Shown: positions 4,206 to 39,470 of the stretch, one piece after another
Numbering within the stretch: position 1 is the first letter of the stretch
Layout: each line of letters starts with the position of its first letter
NCBI GenBank assembly: GCA_902800345.1
Contig: CADCDO010000015.1
Coordinates: forward strand, 62,001-126,000
Source of the DNA: Fibrobacter succinogenes
GTDB taxonomy: Bacteria > Fibrobacterota > Fibrobacteria > Fibrobacterales > Fibrobacteraceae
DNA length: 64,000 bases
Reading direction: 5' to 3'
The notes under the pieces: model-generated
Told to the model about the DNA's origin: nothing
The model's input: the letters and a program-made list of their open reading frames with translations, nothing else
Database searches by the model: none
Program-made: the position numbers and the translations under genes

Positions 4206-5582
4206 ATGTACAAACAAAACAATCGTTTTCCCCGCCGTTCCGAAGGCAACAGAATCGGCAAGCCCCTCGCCGGAGGCAAATTCCACGCTTCCAGAAAATC
4301 CGATGTCCGGAATAGCGACAAACTCAACGAAGCCAAGAAGGCGGAAAAATCCGCAGCGCCTGTCGTCCGCCGCATCATGACGTTCGATGACATCAAGGCG
4401 CAAGTTTCAGCATGGATGGAAAACGACCGCATTCCAGGAAAGTTGCAAGCCTGGTTTACCGCCGACGCCATCCCCGAGCATTCCGACTGGAGAATTGTCA
4501 AGGAATACCGCGGGAAACAGGAGTTCTTGACCATCGACGCTCCGACCCGCGACATGAAGCCGATCGAGCTTGTGAACCGTGTCATGGAACAACTTCACAA
4601 AGACCATCTCCACATATTCAAGAAAGCATTGCGCCAGATTTGGTTCCGTGCCACGGGCGACGGACGCTTTGCGCTTCTCGTCCAGGTGAATGTCAAAGGG
4701 AAACTCTCCGCGCACGGCTACAAGACGTTTATCGATTTCATCGAACGCAGTTGCCCCGAAGTCATCAGCTGCCACCAGATTCAGTGCCTCCCCGACCGGC
4801 TTTTCAACCCCGCCGATGCTCAGGGAATGAAGATTGAAACCAAATGCTCCCTCGGCAACGACTTTATGCCTATCGCCGGCACAGGCTTCTGCATGCATGT
4901 TCTGGACTGGACGCCCCGCATCAAGGACGCATGGCTGAACCTCCCCGTGCGCATCAAGGACGCTATACATCCGAACCGTGAAGACCGATTCTTTGAATTC
5001 TGCTCCGGTTCTTCGTATATCTCGGCTTCGCTTGCCGCATATTTCAAGCAGGTCGAATCGATGGACTGCCGAGAATCCGCCATGCAGTCTTCCAAGCTTA
5101 ACATCCGGAACCTTTCCACGTCCAACATGCGTTTCCACCGCAGCCACCTGGACGCAAACTTCATTTCGAAATTTTTCTCCAGGAGCGAAAACGCCGAAGG
5201 CCGCTGGACGTTCTACATCAACCTGAACGCCGAAGACATTCTCCCCTCGAACGTAGAACAGACGCTAGCCGCGTCAAGGCCCGAAAGGATCCTCCTCCAG
5301 ACCGGGAACCTCGAAACCGCCTCCCGCGAAATCAAGGCTTTCCGAAACGAAGGATACGTGCTACGCAAGAGCATCCCGCTTTACCTCGAACCGGGCAGCG
5401 GACGTTTCGAAATTCTTTTTCTGTTCGTCCCGGACAGAGTAGGCCTCCTGGGCCAGAATCCGGCCATGGCACACCGTTCCAGAAATATCCAGCGCCCCAA
5501 GGAACGCCCGCAAAGCTCGAAAAAGTGTGAAATTCCGCATTTTGTGCAACAAACACCATCTTTTAGGCAAAGAAAAGATTAA
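4206..5582 (+). CDS. TrmA/RlmCD-like methyltransferase homologue, probably degenerate
   Basis: A 458-residue protein with a basic, low-complexity N-terminus (residues 1-55, many Arg/Lys). The C-terminal half resembles the class I SAM fold of TrmA/RlmC/RlmD uracil-5-methyltransferases: motif I-like FFEFCSGSSYISASLAAYF, an acidic VESMDCRES, then a terminal region ILLQTGNLETASREI and GYVLRKSIPLYLEPGSGRFEILFLF. Active family members have an SCNP-type cysteine where this protein reads QTGN, so the nucleophile appears absent. It may bind RNA without methylating uracil, or use different chemistry. Starts 21 bases after the ATPase gene; ribosome site weak (AAAG). Confidence 0.6.
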   Translation: MYKQNNRFPRRSEGNRIGKPLAGGKFHASRKSDVRNSDKLNEAKKAEKSAAPVVRRIMTFDDIKAQVSAWMENDRIPGKLQAWFTADAIPEHSDWRIVKEYRGKQEFLTIDAPTRDMKPIELVNRVMEQLHKDHLHIFKKALRQIWFRATGDGRFALLVQVNVKGKLSAHGYKTFIDFIERSCPEVISCHQIQCLPDRLFNPADAQGMKIETKCSLGNDFMPIAGTGFCMHVLDWTPRIKDAWLNLPVRIKDAIHPNREDRFFEFCSGSSYISASLAAYFKQVESMDCRESAMQSSKLNIRNLSTSNMRFHRSHLDANFISKFFSRSENAEGRWTFYINLNAEDILPSNVEQTLAASRPERILLQTGNLETASREIKAFRNEGYVLRKSIPLYLEPGSGRFEILFLFVPDRVGLLGQNPAMAHRSRNIQRPKERPQSSKKCEIPHFVQQTPSFRQRKD

Positions 5583-14949: not shown

Positions 14950-14957
14950 TAGGATAT

Positions 14958-15004
14958 AGACGAAAGAACGCCCGCAAAAGCGGGCTACAGACGAAAGACG
15001 AAAG
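14958..15004 (+). repeat. Post-stop hairpin repeat, copy 1 (AGACGAAAGAACG family)
   Basis: AGACGAAAGAACG, then a stem GCCCGC-AAAA-GCGGGC, then CTACAGACGAAAG. Located nine bases after the pssA stop. Three further copies at 39419, 46510 and 47388 keep the flanks but have different, still self-complementary stems. Confidence 0.75.
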
Positions 15005-15007
15005 AAA

Positions 15008-26244: not shown

Positions 26245-26931
26245 TCAATTCTCATAGAACCTTAACGGGACCTTGTATGTTCCGCGAGTTTTTTTCTTTT
26301 CAAATTTCCATCGGCTTACGGCTCGTCTAACATCTTCGTCAAATTCATCATAGCCCGTCGTTGAAGATTCGACCACAATATTTTCCACCGCCCCCAATTC
26401 ATCAACTTTCAATTTCAGAAGAACAGTTCCGCTAAACTCGGGCCTTTTCATCAGATACTTGTTGTAAATATGACGCAAGCCCGGACTCCTGCGACGAAAC
26501 TCTTTCCAAGCATAATGCACATCTAAATCGGATCCTTCAACAACAACAATATCCGTTTCTTTGGGGACCTGCACAGGACATTTCGTTTTGACCATGACTC
26601 CGCCCCCACTCCCATAAAGGAGCCCAGCGACAATACCATCCCCCATACGTCGATCTTCATCTAGCTGCGGATCGAGCATGCTACGTGTTCCATAAAGAGC
26701 AGTCACACCAGAAATAGTTTCGCTCGTTATAGAACTATCGCGGACAGGGAGATATTTGGATTCAACAATAACTTTTTTATTTTGCCTCACAACTTGTTGC
26801 TGTTCCGCCTTAATATTTTTTTGCGTGACCGGATCATCCGCCTTCTTATCGGAATCGTTACAACCAGCCCACAACGCAGCTGCGGTCATCAAAGCAACTT
26901 TGCCAAGAAATTTGCTGAAATTTTTCGCCAT
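26245..26931 (-). CDS. AgmX/TonB-like lipoprotein paralogue
   Basis: 228 residues. The first 32 residues are identical to those of the 24907-26178 protein (signal, lipobox WAGC and NDSDKKAD), and the DNA there differs at only a few positions, while the bodies diverge. One C-terminal module is present: RSPGLRHIYNKYLMKR, GTVLLKLKVDELGAVEN, SSTTGYDEFDEDVRRAVSRW. Role unknown. Just upstream on the same strand is dyad array A (27017-27233), whose position suggests it controls this gene. Confidence 0.8.
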   Translation of the reverse strand: MAKNFSKFLGKVALMTAAALWAGCNDSDKKADDPVTQKNIKAEQQQVVRQNKKVIVESKYLPVRDSSITSETISGVTALYGTRSMLDPQLDEDRRMGDGIVAGLLYGSGGGVMVKTKCPVQVPKETDIVVVEGSDLDVHYAWKEFRRRSPGLRHIYNKYLMKRPEFSGTVLLKLKVDELGAVENIVVESSTTGYDEFDEDVRRAVSRWKFEKKKTRGTYKVPLRFYEN

Positions 26932-27016: not shown

Positions 27017-27233
27017 TGCTACCAAAAGTTAAAAATAATGTATTCTGGTAGCATAATTTTTAATTTATATGAATCAGCTGAAGGCAAAAAAGCCGTGATT
27101 ATGCTACCAAAACGGATAATTTCGGCAATTTGGTAACACAAAATCAGTTCGACAAAGCAAAATCGCCCCCAAAATAGTTAATTTATTCAAATTTTATGAT
27201 ACCAAAATTCCATTTTTTTGCGATTTGGTAGCA
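27017..27233. other. Three-dyad element, copy A (37-bp palindromic units)
   Basis: Three units of identical length, each a 10-bp arm, 17 variable bases and the inverted arm: 27017-27053 (TGCTACCAAA...TCTGGTAGCA), 27102-27138 (TGCTACCAAA...TTTGGTAACA) and 27197-27233 (TGATACCAAA...TTTGGTAGCA). Unit starts are 85 and 95 bp apart, close to 8 and 9 helical turns. The same geometry recurs exactly at 29315-29531. The spacers have AT-rich segments resembling each other (TTTATATG). Noncoding; it lies between two reverse-strand lipoprotein genes, upstream of the one at 26245. Confidence 0.85.
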
Positions 27234-27328: not shown

Positions 27329-28288
27329 TTATTCAAAAAATTGAATAGGCACATAAACAACAATCGTCCCAGATTTAACCTTGGGGAAAGTCCATCGACT
27401 TACTACGGTTCTTATATTTTCATCAAATTCTTTAACGCCCGTCGTCGATTTCTTTATTGAAGATTCTTTTACACTTCCATCAGCAGCAATCGTCAATTTT
27501 AAAACGATTTTTCCTTGAAATGTATTAGCAGAATCTTTCTTGACAAATTTTCTGTATATATGCCTTAAACCCGGACTTCTTTGTTGAAAGACACGTTTAA
27601 TTCTAGAAAGCATATCTTGATTAGGAGTTCGTTTGTCTGCGAATTCAATATTTTCATAAAGAACTTTCAGAGTCCATTTAGACGGAAACACATTCGAATT
27701 ACCCAATAACGATTGAAGAATAGACCCATCATCTACAGAAGAATTTCCAGGACCATTATTAAATCGACCTTCAGAACCATCATTAATGCCAAGACGACGT
27801 GGTCTATTCCTATCCGCAATAACACCATAATAACACATAACAGAGCCCAAATCTAATTTTGCTTTCAAAATCGAATCACGATTTTTTGCAAAAATAAACC
27901 TCCGCATAAGAGCATATTGATATCCGTCTTTCTTTTTTTCTACATCATTCCATTCAATCGGGAAAAAAGCCTTCATCAAGCTATCTCTAGTCCGCTGTTT
28001 TTCAAGCAGTTTCGCAGAATCCAACAATACGACCGCTTGAGAATTTGCATCAAGTGAATCTTTGAGAAATTCACTCGCAAGAGAATCGTCTTTTTCCGAT
28101 ACATGCGGCAACGCTGCAGAATCAGGCGATTCAATGGGCTTGGATTTTTCAGCTACACCGAAACTATTCGAAGCGTTGCTTACCGACTTTTCATTTTTCG
28201 AATCTTTATCGACATTGCAACCCGCCCACAGCATCGCTGTAGCCATCAACGCAATTTCACTAAAATATTTGCTAAACAATTTTGCCAT
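27329..28288 (-). CDS. AgmX/TonB-like lipoprotein paralogue, divergent
   Basis: 319 residues from the MAKLFSKYF start at 28288, chosen over Met codons at 28294 and 28303 because it aligns with MAKNFSKFL of the two paralogues. Lipobox WAGC, then a Ser/Asp/Lys-rich linker. The single C-terminal module reads RSPGLRHIYRKFVKK, GKIVLKLTIAADGSVKES and TTGVKEFDENIRTVVSRWTFPK. The signal resembles, but is not identical to, the other paralogues. The gene starts 31 bases after the PD-(D/E)XK-like gene, suggesting cotranscription from the region holding dyad array B. Confidence 0.8.
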   Translation of the reverse strand: MAKLFSKYFSEIALMATAMLWAGCNVDKDSKNEKSVSNASNSFGVAEKSKPIESPDSAALPHVSEKDDSLASEFLKDSLDANSQAVVLLDSAKLLEKQRTRDSLMKAFFPIEWNDVEKKKDGYQYALMRRFIFAKNRDSILKAKLDLGSVMCYYGVIADRNRPRRLGINDGSEGRFNNGPGNSSVDDGSILQSLLGNSNVFPSKWTLKVLYENIEFADKRTPNQDMLSRIKRVFQQRSPGLRHIYRKFVKKDSANTFQGKIVLKLTIAADGSVKESSIKKSTTGVKEFDENIRTVVSRWTFPKVKSGTIVVYVPIQFFE

Positions 28289-28319
28289 GGCCATAAATAA
28301 CAAAATTCAAAACAAGCAG

Positions 28320-29135: not shown

Positions 29136-29314
29136 CGCATCCTCTTGTAGTTGTTCATATAGCAAACGATATAGCAAACCGAGGTGCAGACGCATCCTGC
29201 ATATAATAAAGGGTCGAACAAGTCATTCTTGCCCAACAAACAATGACAATATGCAAAATTTTTTCATTAAAAACAAGCAGTAGCGAGCTAGAAAGTGCAA
29301 TTTTTACCAAAAAG

Positions 29315-29531
29315 TGTTACCAAACTGGTCCAAAAATTAATTTTGGCAACACAAATTTTAGTTTATATGCAACAACTAGGGACTAAATAGACGAAAAAAT
29401 GTTACCAAAACAAGAAATAAAGCCAATTTGGTAACACACGAAACCCCAAGCGCATCCAAAAATCACAGATTTTAATTAATTTGTATATAAAATTTGATAC
29501 CATTTTCACTTTTCTACGCACTTTGGTAGCA
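29315..29531. other. Three-dyad element, copy B
   Basis: Units at 29315-29351 (TGTTACCAAA...TTTGGCAACA), 29400-29436 (TGTTACCAAA...TTTGGTAACA, perfect) and 29495-29531 (TGATACCATT...TTTGGTAGCA). Each is 37 bp, with starts 85 and 95 bp apart, exactly as in copy A. Spacers share ATTTTAGTTTATATG and TTAATTTGTATA-like segments with copy A. It fills much of the 502-base gap between the reverse-strand nuclease-like gene and miaB, so either or both could be controlled by it. Confidence 0.85.
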
Positions 29532-29637
29532 TTTTTTCGCATTTTCAGCACTTTCGAACTCCAACATTCACCATTTGCGCCATTTATCCCTCGTCTCTCG
29601 TCACTCATCTCTCGTCTAAAAATCTATTTTTGCGCGC

Positions 29638-30894
29638 ATGAAAAAGTACCACTTGGCCACATACGGCTGCCAGATGAACGAATACGACTCCGCGATGATC
29701 GCGCAGGAGTTGGACATGTGCGGTTGCGTCGAGACGAACAACCAGGAAGACGCCGACATCATCATCGTGAACACCTGCAGCGTGCGTGAAAAGGCCGAGG
29801 AAACGTGCGGCTGCATGGCCAAGAATCGCGGGCCGGAACTGCTCAAGCGCCTCAAGAACGTGAACTACATCGTGGGCCCGGACCAGTACCGCAAAATTCC
29901 GGAACTGCTGTTCGGCGACGCCCAGAGCCCGCTGCACCAGACGCACCACAAGATGTTCATCGACGAAGACCTGAGCGAGAACTACCTCGGCGAATATGCC
30001 AAACTCCAGAACGACGTAAGCGCATTCGTCGCCATTCAGCGCGGTTGCAACAAGCGTTGCAGTTACTGCATCGTGCCGTACCTCCGCGGTCCCGAGAAGT
30101 ACCGCGACATGGACGACGTGCTGACCGAAGTCAAGCGAGCCGCCGACAAAGGCATTACCGAAGTCATGCTGCTCGGCCAGACGGTAAATGCATACAAAAC
30201 GCCAAATGCGGACTTCACGACATTACTGACAAAAGTTTCTGAAATCGGCGGCATCAAGCGCATCCGCTTTACAAGTCCGCATCCGCGTCACTATACGAAC
30301 GAACTCATCGACGTACTCCTGAACAACCCGAAAGTTTGCCATTATGCGCACATTCCGCTCCAGAGCGGCTCCGACGCCATCCTCAAGAAGATGCGCCGCC
30401 AGCACAACATGGAGCAATACATGACCGTCATCGAGCAGTTGCGCAGCAAGGACCCGTACTACGCAATTTCGACAGACGTCATCTGCGGATTTGTCGGCGA
30501 GACCGAAGAAGATTTCGAACAGACTATCAAAGCGTTCGAAGCGTGCCAATTCGACACGGCGTACATGTTCATCTACAGCCCGCGCAAAGGCACCGAATCG
30601 TACAAAGAAACAGAAATTCTCACGCCCGAAGAAAAACTCGCCCGCCACACGCGCCTCGTGGAACTCCAGAACGCCATTACGCTCAAGCGCAACCAGATGA
30701 TGATTGGCCGCACCGAAGAAATTCTCGTCGAAACAAGTTCCACACGCGACGCCACTGAATTTGTCGGCAAGACGGACAACTTCAAGAAAGTCATCTTCAA
30801 GCCGGAAGAAGGTCGCATCGTCAAGCCAGGCGATTACGTACAGGTAAAAATCGACGACATCCGCGGTTGGACACTCCGCGGAACGCTCGTCTGA
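29638..30894 (+). CDS. miaB: tRNA-2-methylthio-N6-dimethylallyladenosine synthase MiaB
   Basis: 418 residues. MiaB adds a methylthio group to i6A37 of tRNA using two 4Fe-4S clusters and SAM. N-terminal cluster cysteines lie in TYGCQMNEYDS, IIVNTCSVREKAE and TCGCMAKNRG. The radical-SAM CxxxCxxC is in RGCNKRCSYCIVPYLRG. A C-terminal TRAM domain closes with VQVKIDDIRGWTLRGTLV. The final eight codons and stop form the first unit of a 32-bp tandem repeat that runs to 31150. The start ATG at 29638 has only weak upstream purines. Confidence 0.97.
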   Translation: MKKYHLATYGCQMNEYDSAMIAQELDMCGCVETNNQEDADIIIVNTCSVREKAEETCGCMAKNRGPELLKRLKNVNYIVGPDQYRKIPELLFGDAQSPLHQTHHKMFIDEDLSENYLGEYAKLQNDVSAFVAIQRGCNKRCSYCIVPYLRGPEKYRDMDDVLTEVKRAADKGITEVMLLGQTVNAYKTPNADFTTLLTKVSEIGGIKRIRFTSPHPRHYTNELIDVLLNNPKVCHYAHIPLQSGSDAILKKMRRQHNMEQYMTVIEQLRSKDPYYAISTDVICGFVGETEEDFEQTIKAFEACQFDTAYMFIYSPRKGTESYKETEILTPEEKLARHTRLVELQNAITLKRNQMMIGRTEEILVETSSTRDATEFVGKTDNFKKVIFKPEEGRIVKPGDYVQVKIDDIRGWTLRGTLV

Positions 30895-31150
30895 TAGTAT
30901 GGACACTCCGCGGGACGCTCGTCTGATAGTATGGACACTTCGCGGGACGCTCGTCTGATAGTATGGACACTCCGCGGAACGCTCGTCTGATAGTACGGAC
31001 ACTCCGCAGGACGCTCGTTTGATAGTATGGACACTCCGCGGAACGCTCGTCTGATAGTATGGACTTTCCGCGGGACGCTCGTCTGATAGTATGGACACTC
31101 CGCGGAACGCTCGTCTGATAATACGGACACTCCGCAGGACGCTCGTCTGA
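30869..31150 (+). repeat. 32-bp minisatellite arising from the miaB 3' end
   Basis: Eight full units and one partial unit of GGACACTCCGCGGAACGCTC plus GTCTGATAGTAT. Unit boundaries: 30869, 30901, 30933, 30965, 30997, 31029, 31061, 31093, 31125. Unit 1 is the end of miaB, encoding the last residues and the TGA. Copies differ by single substitutions (CGGAAC, CGGGAC, CAGGAC). Units 4-5 and 8-9 share the same variant pair, suggesting duplication of larger blocks. The period is not a multiple of three. Confidence 0.95.
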
Positions 31151-31348
31151 CAGGTAACAGGTTTTAGTTTTTGGGGTTTAGGGGGTAAAACAAGAAGGTT
31201 GTACCCGCCAAACCATGAGGTTCCTAAACAGACTCCGCCCCTCGGTTCATTTACGTAACTTACGGAATATCAACAACTTACGTATTTTTCAGCTGTCGCT
31301 TTATAAAAATATTTGTATCTTTAGTCACGAGGGAAAATAGAGGCTAGC

Positions 31349-35261: not shown

Positions 35262-35840
35262 ATGCGATCCGTGTGTTTTACAGTATTGTTCCTTGCAGCG
35301 CTTACCTTTGCCGCCTCCCCCGCGAAGGCGGATTCCACCGCGCTCTCGGAAACTCTCGTTGCAGCACAAGATACAGTTGTCGATACAATATACGTTATCC
35401 ACAACGACGGTATTCCATGGAATCGCGAACACTTTGACCCCGAGCGTCTCGTACGTCACGACACATTCGACCCCGCCTTGAAAGTCGCCTATACCTATTC
35501 TGTGAATTTCATCAGTGGAAGTTTGGGATCATTCGCGCACCAAAGCTTCATGGCTCATTTTGCCTACGAGTTTACGCCGAATCTTCATTTATACGCAAAC
35601 GTAGGGCTCTGGATGCCATTGTATTCGAGTTTACGTTTCGGGAACCGCATCGCACGTGAAGACGTAAAGCAAGGAAACGTGGGCATTCTGATTCCAGACA
35701 TTGCGCTTGAATACAAGCCAACCGAGAATATGAAATTCAGAGTCATGTTTGTCAACGAAGGCGATGCATTCAAGGCTTACGGGCCGCATCGATTCTTCTA
35801 CGACGATTGTCCATGGAGAAACCCGCATTATTGCTGGTAA
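35262..35840 (+). CDS. Secreted small beta-rich protein, tandem paralogue 1
   Basis: 192 residues with a signal peptide (CFTVLFLAALTFAASPAKA). Core phrases DGIPWNREHFDPERLVRHDT, FDPALKVAYTYSVNFISGSL and FAYEFTPNLHLYANVGLWMP look like amphipathic strands of a small outer-membrane or periplasmic beta-barrel. It is closely related to the gene at 36196 (same order of motifs); the C-terminus here is extended by CPWRNPHYCW. Function unknown. The ATG lies just after the flotillin terminator, so it has its own promoter. Confidence 0.75.
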   Translation: MRSVCFTVLFLAALTFAASPAKADSTALSETLVAAQDTVVDTIYVIHNDGIPWNREHFDPERLVRHDTFDPALKVAYTYSVNFISGSLGSFAHQSFMAHFAYEFTPNLHLYANVGLWMPLYSSLRFGNRIAREDVKQGNVGILIPDIALEYKPTENMKFRVMFVNEGDAFKAYGPHRFFYDDCPWRNPHYCW

Positions 35841-35917: not shown

Positions 35918-36182
35918 GCAAGCTTGATTTTGCTACTCTCGCCTTGCACACTTTTGACGCTTCGCGTCCGTGGCGGCGGCTCGGAACTTTAGTTCCGTTT
36001 ATTGTTCTTTTTAATGTTTCAGCCACTGATATGACTTGGTTGTAGTTCTCTTGCTTTAGCAAGTTAGAAATACACCGTTCTCTTGCTTTAGCAAGTTAGA
36101 AATACACCAATGTCATTGGGCTACGGCTCGGTAATAAAATCAAGCAAGCTTGATTTTGCTACTCTCGCCTTGCTCACTTTTG
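35918..36182. repeat. Repeat-rich spacer between tandem paralogues
   Basis: A 39-bp sequence starting GCAAGCTTGATTTTGCTACT occurs at 35918-35956 and 36144-36182 with one mismatch. Inside, a perfect 32-bp tandem duplication (36045-36076, 36077-36108) begins GTTCTCTTGCTTTAGCAAG and contains a CTTGC-TTTA-GCAAG hairpin. AAAATCAAG-CAAG-CTTGATTTT at 36136-36157 is another hairpin. No gene seen in 35841-36195. Confidence 0.85.
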
Positions 36183-36195
36183 TATATTCATTGGC

Positions 36196-36756
36196 ATGAA
36201 ACAAATTATTTTATCAGCTCTTTGCATAACAACTCTCGCCTTTGCGGAGGTTCCCACAAACATTGAATCTGCCGTAACCGCTTCCAAAATCGTCTCCGAA
36301 GCCACGGATCCCGCAAACACCACCAAAGACAACGTTTACGTTATTCAAGATAACGGTATTCCTTGGAACCGAGAACGTTTTGACACCGACCGAATGGTAC
36401 GTCACCAAACATTCGATCCCGCCTTAAAAGTCGCATACACCTATTCTCTCAATTTCGTAGCGGGGAGTTTCGGGTCGCTCGCAAGCCAAAGCCTCATGGC
36501 TAATTTTGCCTACGAATTTACGCCAAATCTTCACTTGTATGCAAACATCGGTCTTGGAATGCCGCTTTATGCGAACATCAGCAACGGTTCCCGAATTGCA
36601 AGAGAAGACTTGCGTCAAGGCAACGTCAGCGTGTTGATTCCGGACATTTCGCTAGAATACAAACCTAGCGAGAACACCTATATCAGACTCTCTTATGTGA
36701 ACGAAAGAGACGCATTAAAGGCCTACGGTCCACGCAGATTCTTCCATGAGCACTGA
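36196..36756 (+). CDS. Secreted small beta-rich protein, tandem paralogue 2
   Basis: 186 residues, signal peptide MKQIILSALCITTLAFA. It shares with the gene at 35262 the segments DNGIPWNRERFDTDRMVRHQ, FDPALKVAYTYSLNF, FAYEFTPNLHLYANIG and EYKPSENTYIRLSYVNERDA, ending YGPRRFFHEH. Likely the product of a tandem duplication. Probably an outer-membrane-associated beta-structure protein; no family name is safe. A repeat (36144-36182) ends 13 bases before its start, and a terminator follows the stop. Confidence 0.75.
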   Translation: MKQIILSALCITTLAFAEVPTNIESAVTASKIVSEATDPANTTKDNVYVIQDNGIPWNRERFDTDRMVRHQTFDPALKVAYTYSLNFVAGSFGSLASQSLMANFAYEFTPNLHLYANIGLGMPLYANISNGSRIAREDLRQGNVSVLIPDISLEYKPSENTYIRLSYVNERDALKAYGPRRFFHEH

Positions 36757-37716: not shown

Positions 37717-39415
37717 TGCAGAAATCGCAAAAGCACTTGCCGCTACGGGTGCATTTGCAGAAGATGCCGCATTGAAACTTATCTCCGTGCCGCCTGATAC
37801 AAGCCACGGAAACTACACTATTCCGTGTTTTTCTCTTGCAAAGACACTCCGCAAGGCGCCAAAACTCATCGCCGAAGACCTTGCCGCCAAGGTTCAACTC
37901 CCCGCCGGGCTTTCCAAGGTTGAAGCCGTCAACGGTTACTTGAACTTTTTCATCGACCGCGGATTTCTCGCCAAATCGACTTTGGACGAAATTGCCGCCA
38001 AGGGCTTGGAATACGGTCATGCCGCTCCGAACGGAAAAGTTGTCTGCATCGACTACAGTTCCCCGAACATCGGTAAGGAACTCGCTTTCCATCACTTGCG
38101 TTCGACGATGATCGGGAACTCGCTTGCCCGCATCTACAAGGCCGCCGGCTACAAGGTGGAACGCATCAACCACCTGGGCGACTGGGGGACTGCATTCGGC
38201 AAGCTCATCGTGATGTACCTCCGCGAAAAGCTCCCGACCGACGAAGCGACTTTGAACGCCCTCACCGTGAAGGAACTCAATATCCTTTACGCAAGCTTCT
38301 CCAAGGCCTCCAAGGAAGAACCCGGTCTCGAAGACGAAGCGCGCGCCGCATTCACGAAGCTCGAACAGGGCGACGAATTCTATCGCAAGCTGTGGACGGC
38401 ATTCCGTGCGGCAACGCTCAAGGAACTCATGCGCATTTACGACATGATGGGCGTTGGTTTTGACCACTATACCGGCGAATCGTTCTTTGAAGACAAGATT
38501 CCGGCCGTTCTCGACGAACTCCGTGAAAAGAATTTGTTGGTGAACAGCCAGGAACGTGACGTGGTGATGCTCGACGAATTCGACTTGAATCCGTGCCTTA
38601 TCCGCAAGAGCGACGGATCTACGTTGTACGCAACCCGCGACCTCGCTGCCGCAATTTACCGCAAGAAGGAATACAACTTTGACAAGTGCCTTTATGTGGT
38701 GGACCTCGGACAGGCACTCCACTTCAAGCAAGTGTTCCATGTGCTCAAGAAGATGGGCCGCGAATGGTACAAGGACATGTACCACATTCCATTTGGCGTC
38801 ATTCTCCAGCTGGTCGACGGCAAGTGGGAAAAGGGCAAGACGCGTACCGGTACGGCAAGTCTCCTCCGCGACGTCATCGAAGCCGCCCAGAAGAAGATTC
38901 TCGAATTCATCGACGAAAAGAATCCGACTCTCGAAAACAAGGAACTCATCGCACGCCAGATCGGTATCAGCGCGCTCACCTTCAACGACCTCAAGAACAG
39001 CCGTTTGAAGGATGTACGCTTTGACTGGGATGCCGTGATGAGCTTCGAAGGCGATACAGGTCCGTACGTGCAGAACGCACACGTGCGTCTTTGCAGCATT
39101 ATGCGCAAGGCCGGCTACACGGTTCCGGTAAGCGACGTGGATTACGCACAACTTACCGACGACGCGGCCTACAGCCTCATCAACATTCTCGCGAAGAAGG
39201 GCGAAAAGATTCTCGCCGCCGTCAAGGACGATGAACCGAGCGTGCTCGCGCAATACGCACTCGAAATTGCCGAAGCCGCACACAAGTTCATCCACGAAGA
39301 CCGCGTGCTCGGATCCGTCGAAGAAAAATCCAGACTCTTCCTCGTGCAATCCACGCAGATTGTGCTCGAGAACGTGCTGGATTTACTCGGCCTCTTCCCC
39401 ATCCGCCAGATGTAA
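37703..39415 (+). CDS. argS: Arginyl-tRNA synthetase
   Basis: 570 residues from ATG 37703 (GGAG seven bases before), preferred to an upstream Met at 37655. Class Ia synthetase: N-terminal Add-1-like domain, the HIGH region reads SSPNIGKELAFHHLRSTMIG (an AFHH variant instead of HVGH), INHLGDWGTAFGKL, FDLNPCLIRKSDGSTLYATR and VVDLGQALHFKQVF. A C-terminal anticodon-binding helical domain ends GLFPIRQM. The KMSK segment is replaced by KTRTGTASLL, as in many ArgRS. Charges tRNA-Arg. Confidence 0.97.
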   Translation: MNSFNAEIAKALAATGAFAEDAALKLISVPPDTSHGNYTIPCFSLAKTLRKAPKLIAEDLAAKVQLPAGLSKVEAVNGYLNFFIDRGFLAKSTLDEIAAKGLEYGHAAPNGKVVCIDYSSPNIGKELAFHHLRSTMIGNSLARIYKAAGYKVERINHLGDWGTAFGKLIVMYLREKLPTDEATLNALTVKELNILYASFSKASKEEPGLEDEARAAFTKLEQGDEFYRKLWTAFRAATLKELMRIYDMMGVGFDHYTGESFFEDKIPAVLDELREKNLLVNSQERDVVMLDEFDLNPCLIRKSDGSTLYATRDLAAAIYRKKEYNFDKCLYVVDLGQALHFKQVFHVLKKMGREWYKDMYHIPFGVILQLVDGKWEKGKTRTGTASLLRDVIEAAQKKILEFIDEKNPTLENKELIARQIGISALTFNDLKNSRLKDVRFDWDAVMSFEGDTGPYVQNAHVRLCSIMRKAGYTVPVSDVDYAQLTDDAAYSLINILAKKGEKILAAVKDDEPSVLAQYALEIAEAAHKFIHEDRVLGSVEEKSRLFLVQSTQIVLENVLDLLGLFPIRQM

Positions 39416-39418
39416 TTT

Positions 39419-39465
39419 AGACGAGAGAACGCCCGCCACGGCGGGCTACAGACGAAAGACGAAAG
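39419..39465 (+). repeat. Post-stop hairpin repeat, copy 2
   Basis: AGACGAGAGAACG, stem GCCCGCC-AC-GGCGGGC, CTACAGACGAAAGACGAAAG. It starts four bases after the argS stop; same family as 14958, 46510 and 47388. Confidence 0.75.
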
Positions 39466-39470
39466 TAAAA

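Follow-up and report, generated by a model that had tools for sequence, protein, structure and literature searches.

Phased arrays of 37-bp palindromes accompany a PD-(D/E)XK-like gene family in Fibrobacter and are predicted to be its binding sites

Phased palindromes are common in operators, the res sites of serine resolvases consist of three unequally spaced dyads with AT-rich centres, and in type III toxin-antitoxin systems the nuclease gene is preceded by RNA repeats of the antitoxin kind. RAYT/REPIN systems (PMC8049555) consist of a nuclease gene flanked by palindromes, together with extragenic palindromes that are dispersed as a lineage-specific population. Here we analyze a window of 64,000 nucleotides from Fibrobacter succinogenes, together with the genome that holds it (G000; 4.27 Mb in 103 contigs) and genomes within and beyond the genus. 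At the sequence level, the comparison reveals arrays of palindromes with a fixed geometry and helical phasing, their linkage to a gene for a PD-(D/E)XK-like protein, and arms whose letters vary according to the gene family. We propose that array B of the window is probably the operator of the adjoining PD-(D/E)XK-fold protein, and that array A and the other dispersed arrays are further predicted sites of the same protein.

Arrays A and B contain three 37-bp dyads each, with the consensus TGNTACCAAA-N17-TTTGGTANCA, set at steps of 85 and then 95 bp that are identical in both (Table 1). The arm TGTTACCAAA is matched 15 times in the window at up to one mismatch, against 3.5 expected, a count reached in none of 100 shuffles. 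The first-pass annotation had claimed that the two copies share the same 37/85/95 geometry; the coordinates bear this out exactly, and well above chance. Other repeats in the window comprise a tandem 32-bp unit at 30837-31188 (eight overlapping 128-bp copies listed, 72-94% identical), which starts inside the end of the miaB ORF and runs past it; a 300-bp repeat at 35391-35690 and 36337-36636 (74% identity), with a perfect 32-bp tandem pair between the two copies (36045-36108); and a 54-bp dispersed repeat at 14954-15007 and 39415-39468 (89%), with a short GC-rich palindrome and AGACGAAAG units.

Table 1. Coordinates of the two arrays and of the genes near them, counted from the first letter of the window (u1 to u3, dyads; M1 and M2, inner motifs)
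Feature	Position	Strand	Remarks
Second AgmX/TonB_C gene	26245..26931	-	Neighbour; 86 bp from array A
Array A, dyad u1	27017..27053	+	
Array A, dyad u2	27102..27138	+	
Array A, dyad u3	27197..27233	+	
Lipoprotein-like gene, AgmX/PglI (TonB_C) C-terminus	27329..28303	-	Neighbour; not counted as part of the system
PD-(D/E)XK-like gene P0001, 291 aa	28320..29195	-	Likely array binder; 15 best-scoring copies have an upstream array
Array B, entire element of ~245 bp	29301..29544	+	~-14 to +230 from u1 start; homology borders; model R1 matches 91301-91543 of contig C15
Array B, dyad u1	29315..29351	+	TGTTACCAAA-N17-TTTGGCAACA; 1 mismatch to consensus
Array B, motif M1 (TTTTACTTTGTNCA-like)	29356..29371	+	Adjoins u1; alignment of 33 arrays
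Array B, dyad u2	29400..29436	+	0 mismatches to consensus
Array B, motif M2 (TTAATTTATNCAAAAATTA-like)	29476..29494	+	Adjoins u3; alignment of 33 arrays
Array B, dyad u3	29495..29531	+	2 mismatches to consensus

Throughout G000, the full dyad at up to two mismatches gave 65 matches against none for a reversed control pattern, and at up to three mismatches 70/71 against 6/9. At least 22 three-dyad arrays, A and B among them, are present with steps of 84-86 and 95 bp; 20 were found by script, and L067, with a one-base slip of its middle dyad, and L079, on contig C65, were added to these. An N19-spacer version of the dyad pattern gave 207 matches, fewer than its control (271), and chance matches made up most of what a loose junction pattern gave (83/85 against 227/206). 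A model of the element built from sequence only, R1, was applied with a match cut of E 0.01, some arrays being counted on both strands; it has two weaker matches in G000, at C5:186257 and C59:21859.

When 33 arrays are aligned from u1 to u3, they span 243-245 bases in 248 columns and share, beyond the dyads, motif M1 near u1, its sister motif M2 near u3, T-rich flanks and AT-rich dyad centres. Mean pairwise identity among the 22 arrays of G000 is 0.90 in the arms, 0.74 in M1, 0.67 in M2 and 0.62 in the flanks, against 0.42 in the dyad interior and 0.37 in the spacers, with 0.29 expected from composition alone, and there are hardly any indels across the 22 copies. Homology between copies usually spans about -14 to +221..+231 from the start of u1 and then ends, and three pairs at different places (L060/L063, L062 twice, L076/L077) are 80-84% alike over the unit. 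In nine orthologous array pairs, arms are identical at 501/540 positions (92.8%) and spacers at 690/857 (80.5%), the two of 18 intervals that differ by 1 bp being omitted from the spacer count. Given these identities among copies and orthologous pairs, arms and spacing appear to be selected at each copy, which agrees with the initial proposal that the architecture is under selection because spacing is kept better than sequence. The idea that A and B enclose an excisable cassette was dropped because most arrays stand alone. A decaying array lies by a class II tRNA synthetase gene at L080:9144-9361 (G004), where u2 and u3 are kept and u1 and M1 are gone.

The 27 unique steps between dyads, ranging from 52 to 198 bp, fall near multiples of 10.55 bp (R 0.82, phase ~0), a value reached by none of 20000 random sets; all steps from the output of the arm-blind finder introduced below were used, 24 hand-picked steps having earlier given R 0.89, and the step of 198 bp is off phase (18.8 turns). 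Steps near multiples of 10.55 bp place the dyads on one face of the helix. A hairpin suits the dyads less well than half-sites for a dimeric protein, since base-3 pairing is broken in 32 of 65 G000 dyads. Pairing at base 3 is above an overall shuffle in G000 (33/65, expected 22.9, p 0.006) and G006 (14/23, p 0.007) and not above it in G086, G043 and G090, and a shuffle within arrays gives p 0.15 for G000.

The gene beside B codes for a protein of 291 aa, the predicted fold of which has a mean pLDDT of 89.8. Its ORF start at 29195 is probably too long: in an alignment of five homologs the first invariant methionine is residue 21 (29135, 180 bp from B), which may be the conserved start. The gene also stands beside arrays in G043, G062, G060, G004 and G009; in G050 and G079 it accompanies arrays with GGGTACC arms, among different neighbours. 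A profile of five array-linked proteins was searched over 80 Fibrobacter genomes, and each of the 15 best-scoring copies has an R1 array 95-166 bp upstream, five of them being members of the query profile, selected for the linkage, and ten new. All 20 genomes with the gene at 390 bits or more have at least four array matches, as do 10 of the other 60, figures for which the bit cut was set post hoc, R1 was built on TG-type arrays and the counts share ancestry. Those ten array-bearing genomes below the gene cut comprise three with no family gene at E 1e-20 (G086, with 22 matches in a genome 72% complete; G093, with 12; G084, with 6) and seven with more distant paralogs only (G091, G019, G021, G049, G069, G007 and G011). 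The gene is present with few array matches in G004 (5) and G001 (4).

One search returned 5423 homologs of this protein family; the family rows examined carry only the source name 'hypothetical protein', and no Pfam or NCBIfam family scored above cut-off for the members tried. Searches of PHROGs, NCBIfam and the sequences of solved structures with the 291-aa protein gave nothing usable, and a Pfam scan of 60 family members gave scattered weak matches (best E 0.0006), with Y1_Tnp absent at E 10. Residues 174-289 match the C-terminal end of the PDC-S68 model (PADLOC, 1221 positions) at E 7e-30, and residues 25-141 have helical matches by VIA-align (Rad50, prefoldin) that are within the range for any long helical hairpin. 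A literature search gave nothing on these arrays or on the PD-(D/E)XK-like family among the matches listed.

Over the same 80 Fibrobacter genomes, R1 has at least one match in 50 and at least eight in 23, with counts of 29 in G006, 28 in G090, 26 in G000, 21 in G062 and 13 in G060. The letters of the arms differ between species: 15 model-read arrays from G062 and G060 have mostly TGCTACT or TGCTACA against TGCTACC in G000, a further G062 array at the amidase locus retains TACC, and GGGTACC, GGGGACC, TGTCACC and GGTTACT are found in other species, with the two inner motifs retained. An arm-blind finder, which passes a region when it contains at least two dyads with common arms, was applied to the 550 nt upstream of 36 + 20 family genes. 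It passed 42 of the 56 (27/36 and 15/20), none of 108 letter-shuffled upstream regions (first set only) and one of 56 downstream regions, which belongs to the locus of the window itself and by its coordinates contains array A. Among the 14 failures, no dyad was found in L269, L276, L278 (185 nt only), L285 (a broken gene), L286 (a fragment) and L297, and one dyad in L260, L264, L268, L271, L279, L281, L283 and L296; further imperfect dyad copies are readable by eye in L260, L264 and L268. A wider control of 135 other ORFs yielded 18 with at least two arm-sharing dyads upstream: judged by coordinates, seven come from array-selected loci, the array of a family gene serves five more, two are family genes on the minus strand that escaped the filter (L287 and L295), and one (L284) lies at a further array with the arm type of its neighbour. 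The other three, two in L286 and one in L285, have two or three such dyads and no tie to a known array.

The arm types of paralogs include TACCTATAAA, GGCATATAAA, TACATACTAA, TACGTACTTA, TAGGACTAAA, GCAGACCAAA and GGGGATTAAA. Arm type TACCTATAA has 28, 20, 47, 31, 36 and 5 dyads in the six of six genomes with a matching paralog array and none in G062 and G003, and GGCRTATAA has 21, 21 and 6 in the three of three with a matching paralog and none in nine others, the positive genomes having been chosen by the gene's own array (at most five of the dyads) and the paralogs of the negatives having been only partly read. In fully listed genomes, dyads of the arm type also lie on contigs other than that of the gene. 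Arm distance tracks protein distance (Mantel r 0.57, 0/5000 permutations) for 27 proteins, obtained from 32 loci by removing two without protein and three near-duplicates and with arms picked by eye; because the genomes share ancestry, this figure and those for co-occurrence overstate certainty.

Several individual loci of this survey may be recorded here. On contig C44 of G000 (L284, ~4572-5122), a second TACGTACTT-type array flanks the family gene on the side opposite its upstream array of that type, and paired dyads of GGCGGTGAAA type lie near the broken and fragmentary family genes of L285 and L286, also in G000. At L286:3490-3650 (G000:C39), three TTACGAAATCT...ATTTCGTA dyads about 54 bp apart stand directly upstream of a 473-aa ORF with an AAA ATPase-like start, perhaps a second gene type with palindromes of its own. 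L093 (G051:C1, a contig of 4.2 kb in a genome otherwise poor in arrays) has the same dyads, spacers and 60-base flanks as L096 (G006:C126), an identity due either to recent transfer or to a contaminating contig.

Beyond Fibrobacter, the family was found in three of 19 genomes, two Lachnospiraceae and one Saccharofermentans MAG (Clostridia, Bacillota). Four TTTCACCAAA-N17-TTTGGTGAAA-like dyads lie upstream of the Saccharofermentans homolog and five TACGGACTAAA dyads upstream of one Lachnospiraceae homolog; the finder passed two of the six homologs in Clostridia, one of the six having only 185 nt upstream. The TACGGACTAAA arm type is present on five contigs of its own genome (four besides that of the gene) and in none of three other genomes. 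An exact two-dyad scan of species genomes (54 stretches) and viral contigs (9 and 3), the pattern of which sees TG-type arms only, gave no array among its non-Fibrobacter matches, which hold at most isolated dyads at up to four mismatches; one match on a virus contig reads as a repeat in coding-looking DNA.

Since most of the relatives examined, including a few in another phylum, follow arrays of the same build with other letters, the arrays are likely bound by the adjoining protein. We envisage that each 37-bp palindrome would be bound by a protein dimer, with the outer five or six arm bases acting as the code and the AT-rich dyad centre helping the DNA to bend. Three or more dimers on one helix face would then join into a single complex, assisted by a reader of motifs M1 and M2; these motifs could also belong to another protein that reads the arms too. 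Through the upstream array, the complex would keep the protein's own gene in check, and it would also occupy tens of intergenic stations. Arrays may occasionally spread as units of ~245 bp and then be retained by selection on binding, with the outcome that each lineage would hold a population of sites matched to its protein. A bolder extension, which we put forward tentatively and hold to be rather unlikely, is that each protein of this widespread family has its own fast-changing password, spelled out in phased palindromes both ahead of its gene and at tens of chromosomal stations. By these stations the nuclease could distinguish the chromosome of its host from foreign DNA, or the folding of the chromosome could be anchored; under such a scheme, the letters would shift from lineage to lineage, since a fixed password would be open to exploitation by viruses or rival copies.

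It is possible, if somewhat doubtful, that the arrays instead constitute an ordinary regulon, in which the PD-(D/E)XK protein or an unlinked regulator would act as a transcription factor for its own gene and for the genes downstream of arrays, AgmX lipoproteins included. The 5' end of the family gene faces the array in the loci compared, ORF starts on the minus strand are 86 bp away from A and 120 bp away from B, and arrays are found within the lipoprotein cluster of G000, G090 and G006. Array placement, however, is mixed: some arrays lie upstream of genes, and at least four others separate convergent genes that each have a Pfam match (OLD nuclease/IDH, DNA polymerase III delta-like/secretin, HSDR_N/exonuclease VII and ammonium transporter/NAD synthase). 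Nor do the genes beside the G000 arrays have a common function in a Pfam scan of 30 neighbour proteins, which include IDH, OLD nuclease, a DNA polymerase III delta-like protein, secretin, exonuclease VII, formyltransferase, LrgA, pyruvate formate lyase, an ammonium transporter, NAD synthase, inositol monophosphatase, a class II tRNA synthetase and an amidase.

The same neighbourhoods bear on what the first-pass annotation had suggested about lipoproteins. An association of arrays with lipoprotein genes is not general, TonB_C/AgmX relatives being close to 5 of the 40 arrays compared and most arrays examined adjoining unrelated genes. The near relative G090 has both A and B, with the same lipoprotein gene next to A; inside the lipoprotein cluster of G006, ~6 kb from B, stands another array, which is a candidate ortholog of A; and in G009 a lipoprotein relative also follows the gene of the B locus. 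G043 has array B at the same place, with miaB on one side and the PD-(D/E)XK gene on the other, and tandem lipoprotein genes with no array A between them. Because A is missing there, and because the closest genome matches of A are other arrays and not B, the suggestion that element and lipoprotein were duplicated together is unsupported. Of the gene pair named beside B, it is the PD-(D/E)XK-like gene, not singled out at the time, that recurs in genome after genome. A lone dyad with two mismatches lies between the PD-(D/E)XK gene and A at L311:12603 (G090:C13), possibly a decaying or partial array.

We regard as unlikely an explanation by purely selfish repeats, moved by the nuclease in the RAYT/REPIN manner and of no use to the host. 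Recurrent element borders, close pairs at different loci, presence or absence at one place between species, as at the IMPase locus, and the tie between array type and linked nuclease-fold gene are all consistent with such movement, but old copies with randomised spacers still keep their arms and spacing, for which selection is needed at each copy, and inspection by eye of the one empty/occupied site compared, which was not cleanly alignable, showed neither terminal repeats nor a target-site duplication. It is more improbable still that adjacency is due to history alone, the gene sitting at a conserved array to which an unrelated protein binds: the linkage in G000, G043, G062, G060, G004 and G009 may stem from one miaB locus, yet linkage persists at other neighbours, in other-arm paralogs of many genomes and at two Clostridia loci. 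That the dyads are RNA or single-strand hairpins, for instance antitoxin-like repeats before a nuclease gene, is highly improbable, for although two to five repeats of ~37 nt stand immediately upstream of a nuclease-fold gene and base-3 pairing in G000 and G006 is above that of the shuffle, this base cannot pair in half of the dyads of G000, many arrays lie far from any such gene, and helical phasing indicates double-stranded DNA.

With arrays predicted to be sites of the adjoining protein as the preferred reading, the family would gain a candidate DNA target and a readable code, in which outer arm letters vary between paralogs and the spacing rule is constant. It would thereby offer a natural series for how a nuclease fold reads DNA, and a case in which the specificity of an entire population of chromosomal sites can change jointly between sister species.

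Compared with known systems, the 291-aa protein matches the candidate phage-defence protein PDC-S68 of PADLOC over ~120 C-terminal positions, but that protein has ~1200 aa at full length and the rest of it is missing here. The catalytic domain of the EDxHD homing endonuclease I-Bth0305I (PDB 3r3p) aligns at 16% identity with a middling Z and leaves the N-terminal half of the 291-aa protein uncovered, and no intron or intein was noticed. With the res sites of serine resolvases the arrays share three dyads, AT-rich centres and unequal spacing, whereas their steps range from 52 to 198 bp, paralogs have up to five dyads and the gene linked to them is of PD-(D/E)XK-like type; the scan of 30 neighbour proteins in G000 showed no resolvase. 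Of the known systems, RAYT/REPIN comes closest in its way of working, with a linked nuclease gene and dispersed extragenic palindromes of a type matching that gene. We do not class the arrays as RAYT/REPIN, because the protein is PD-(D/E)XK-like and has no Pfam match to Y1_Tnp (Y1 HUH transposase), and because the dyads, 32 of 65 of them unpaired at base 3 in G000, do not keep a conserved hairpin pairing. Phased arrays, mostly of two to five palindromes, take the place of paired hairpins here, and the array copies have diverged strongly outside the arms.
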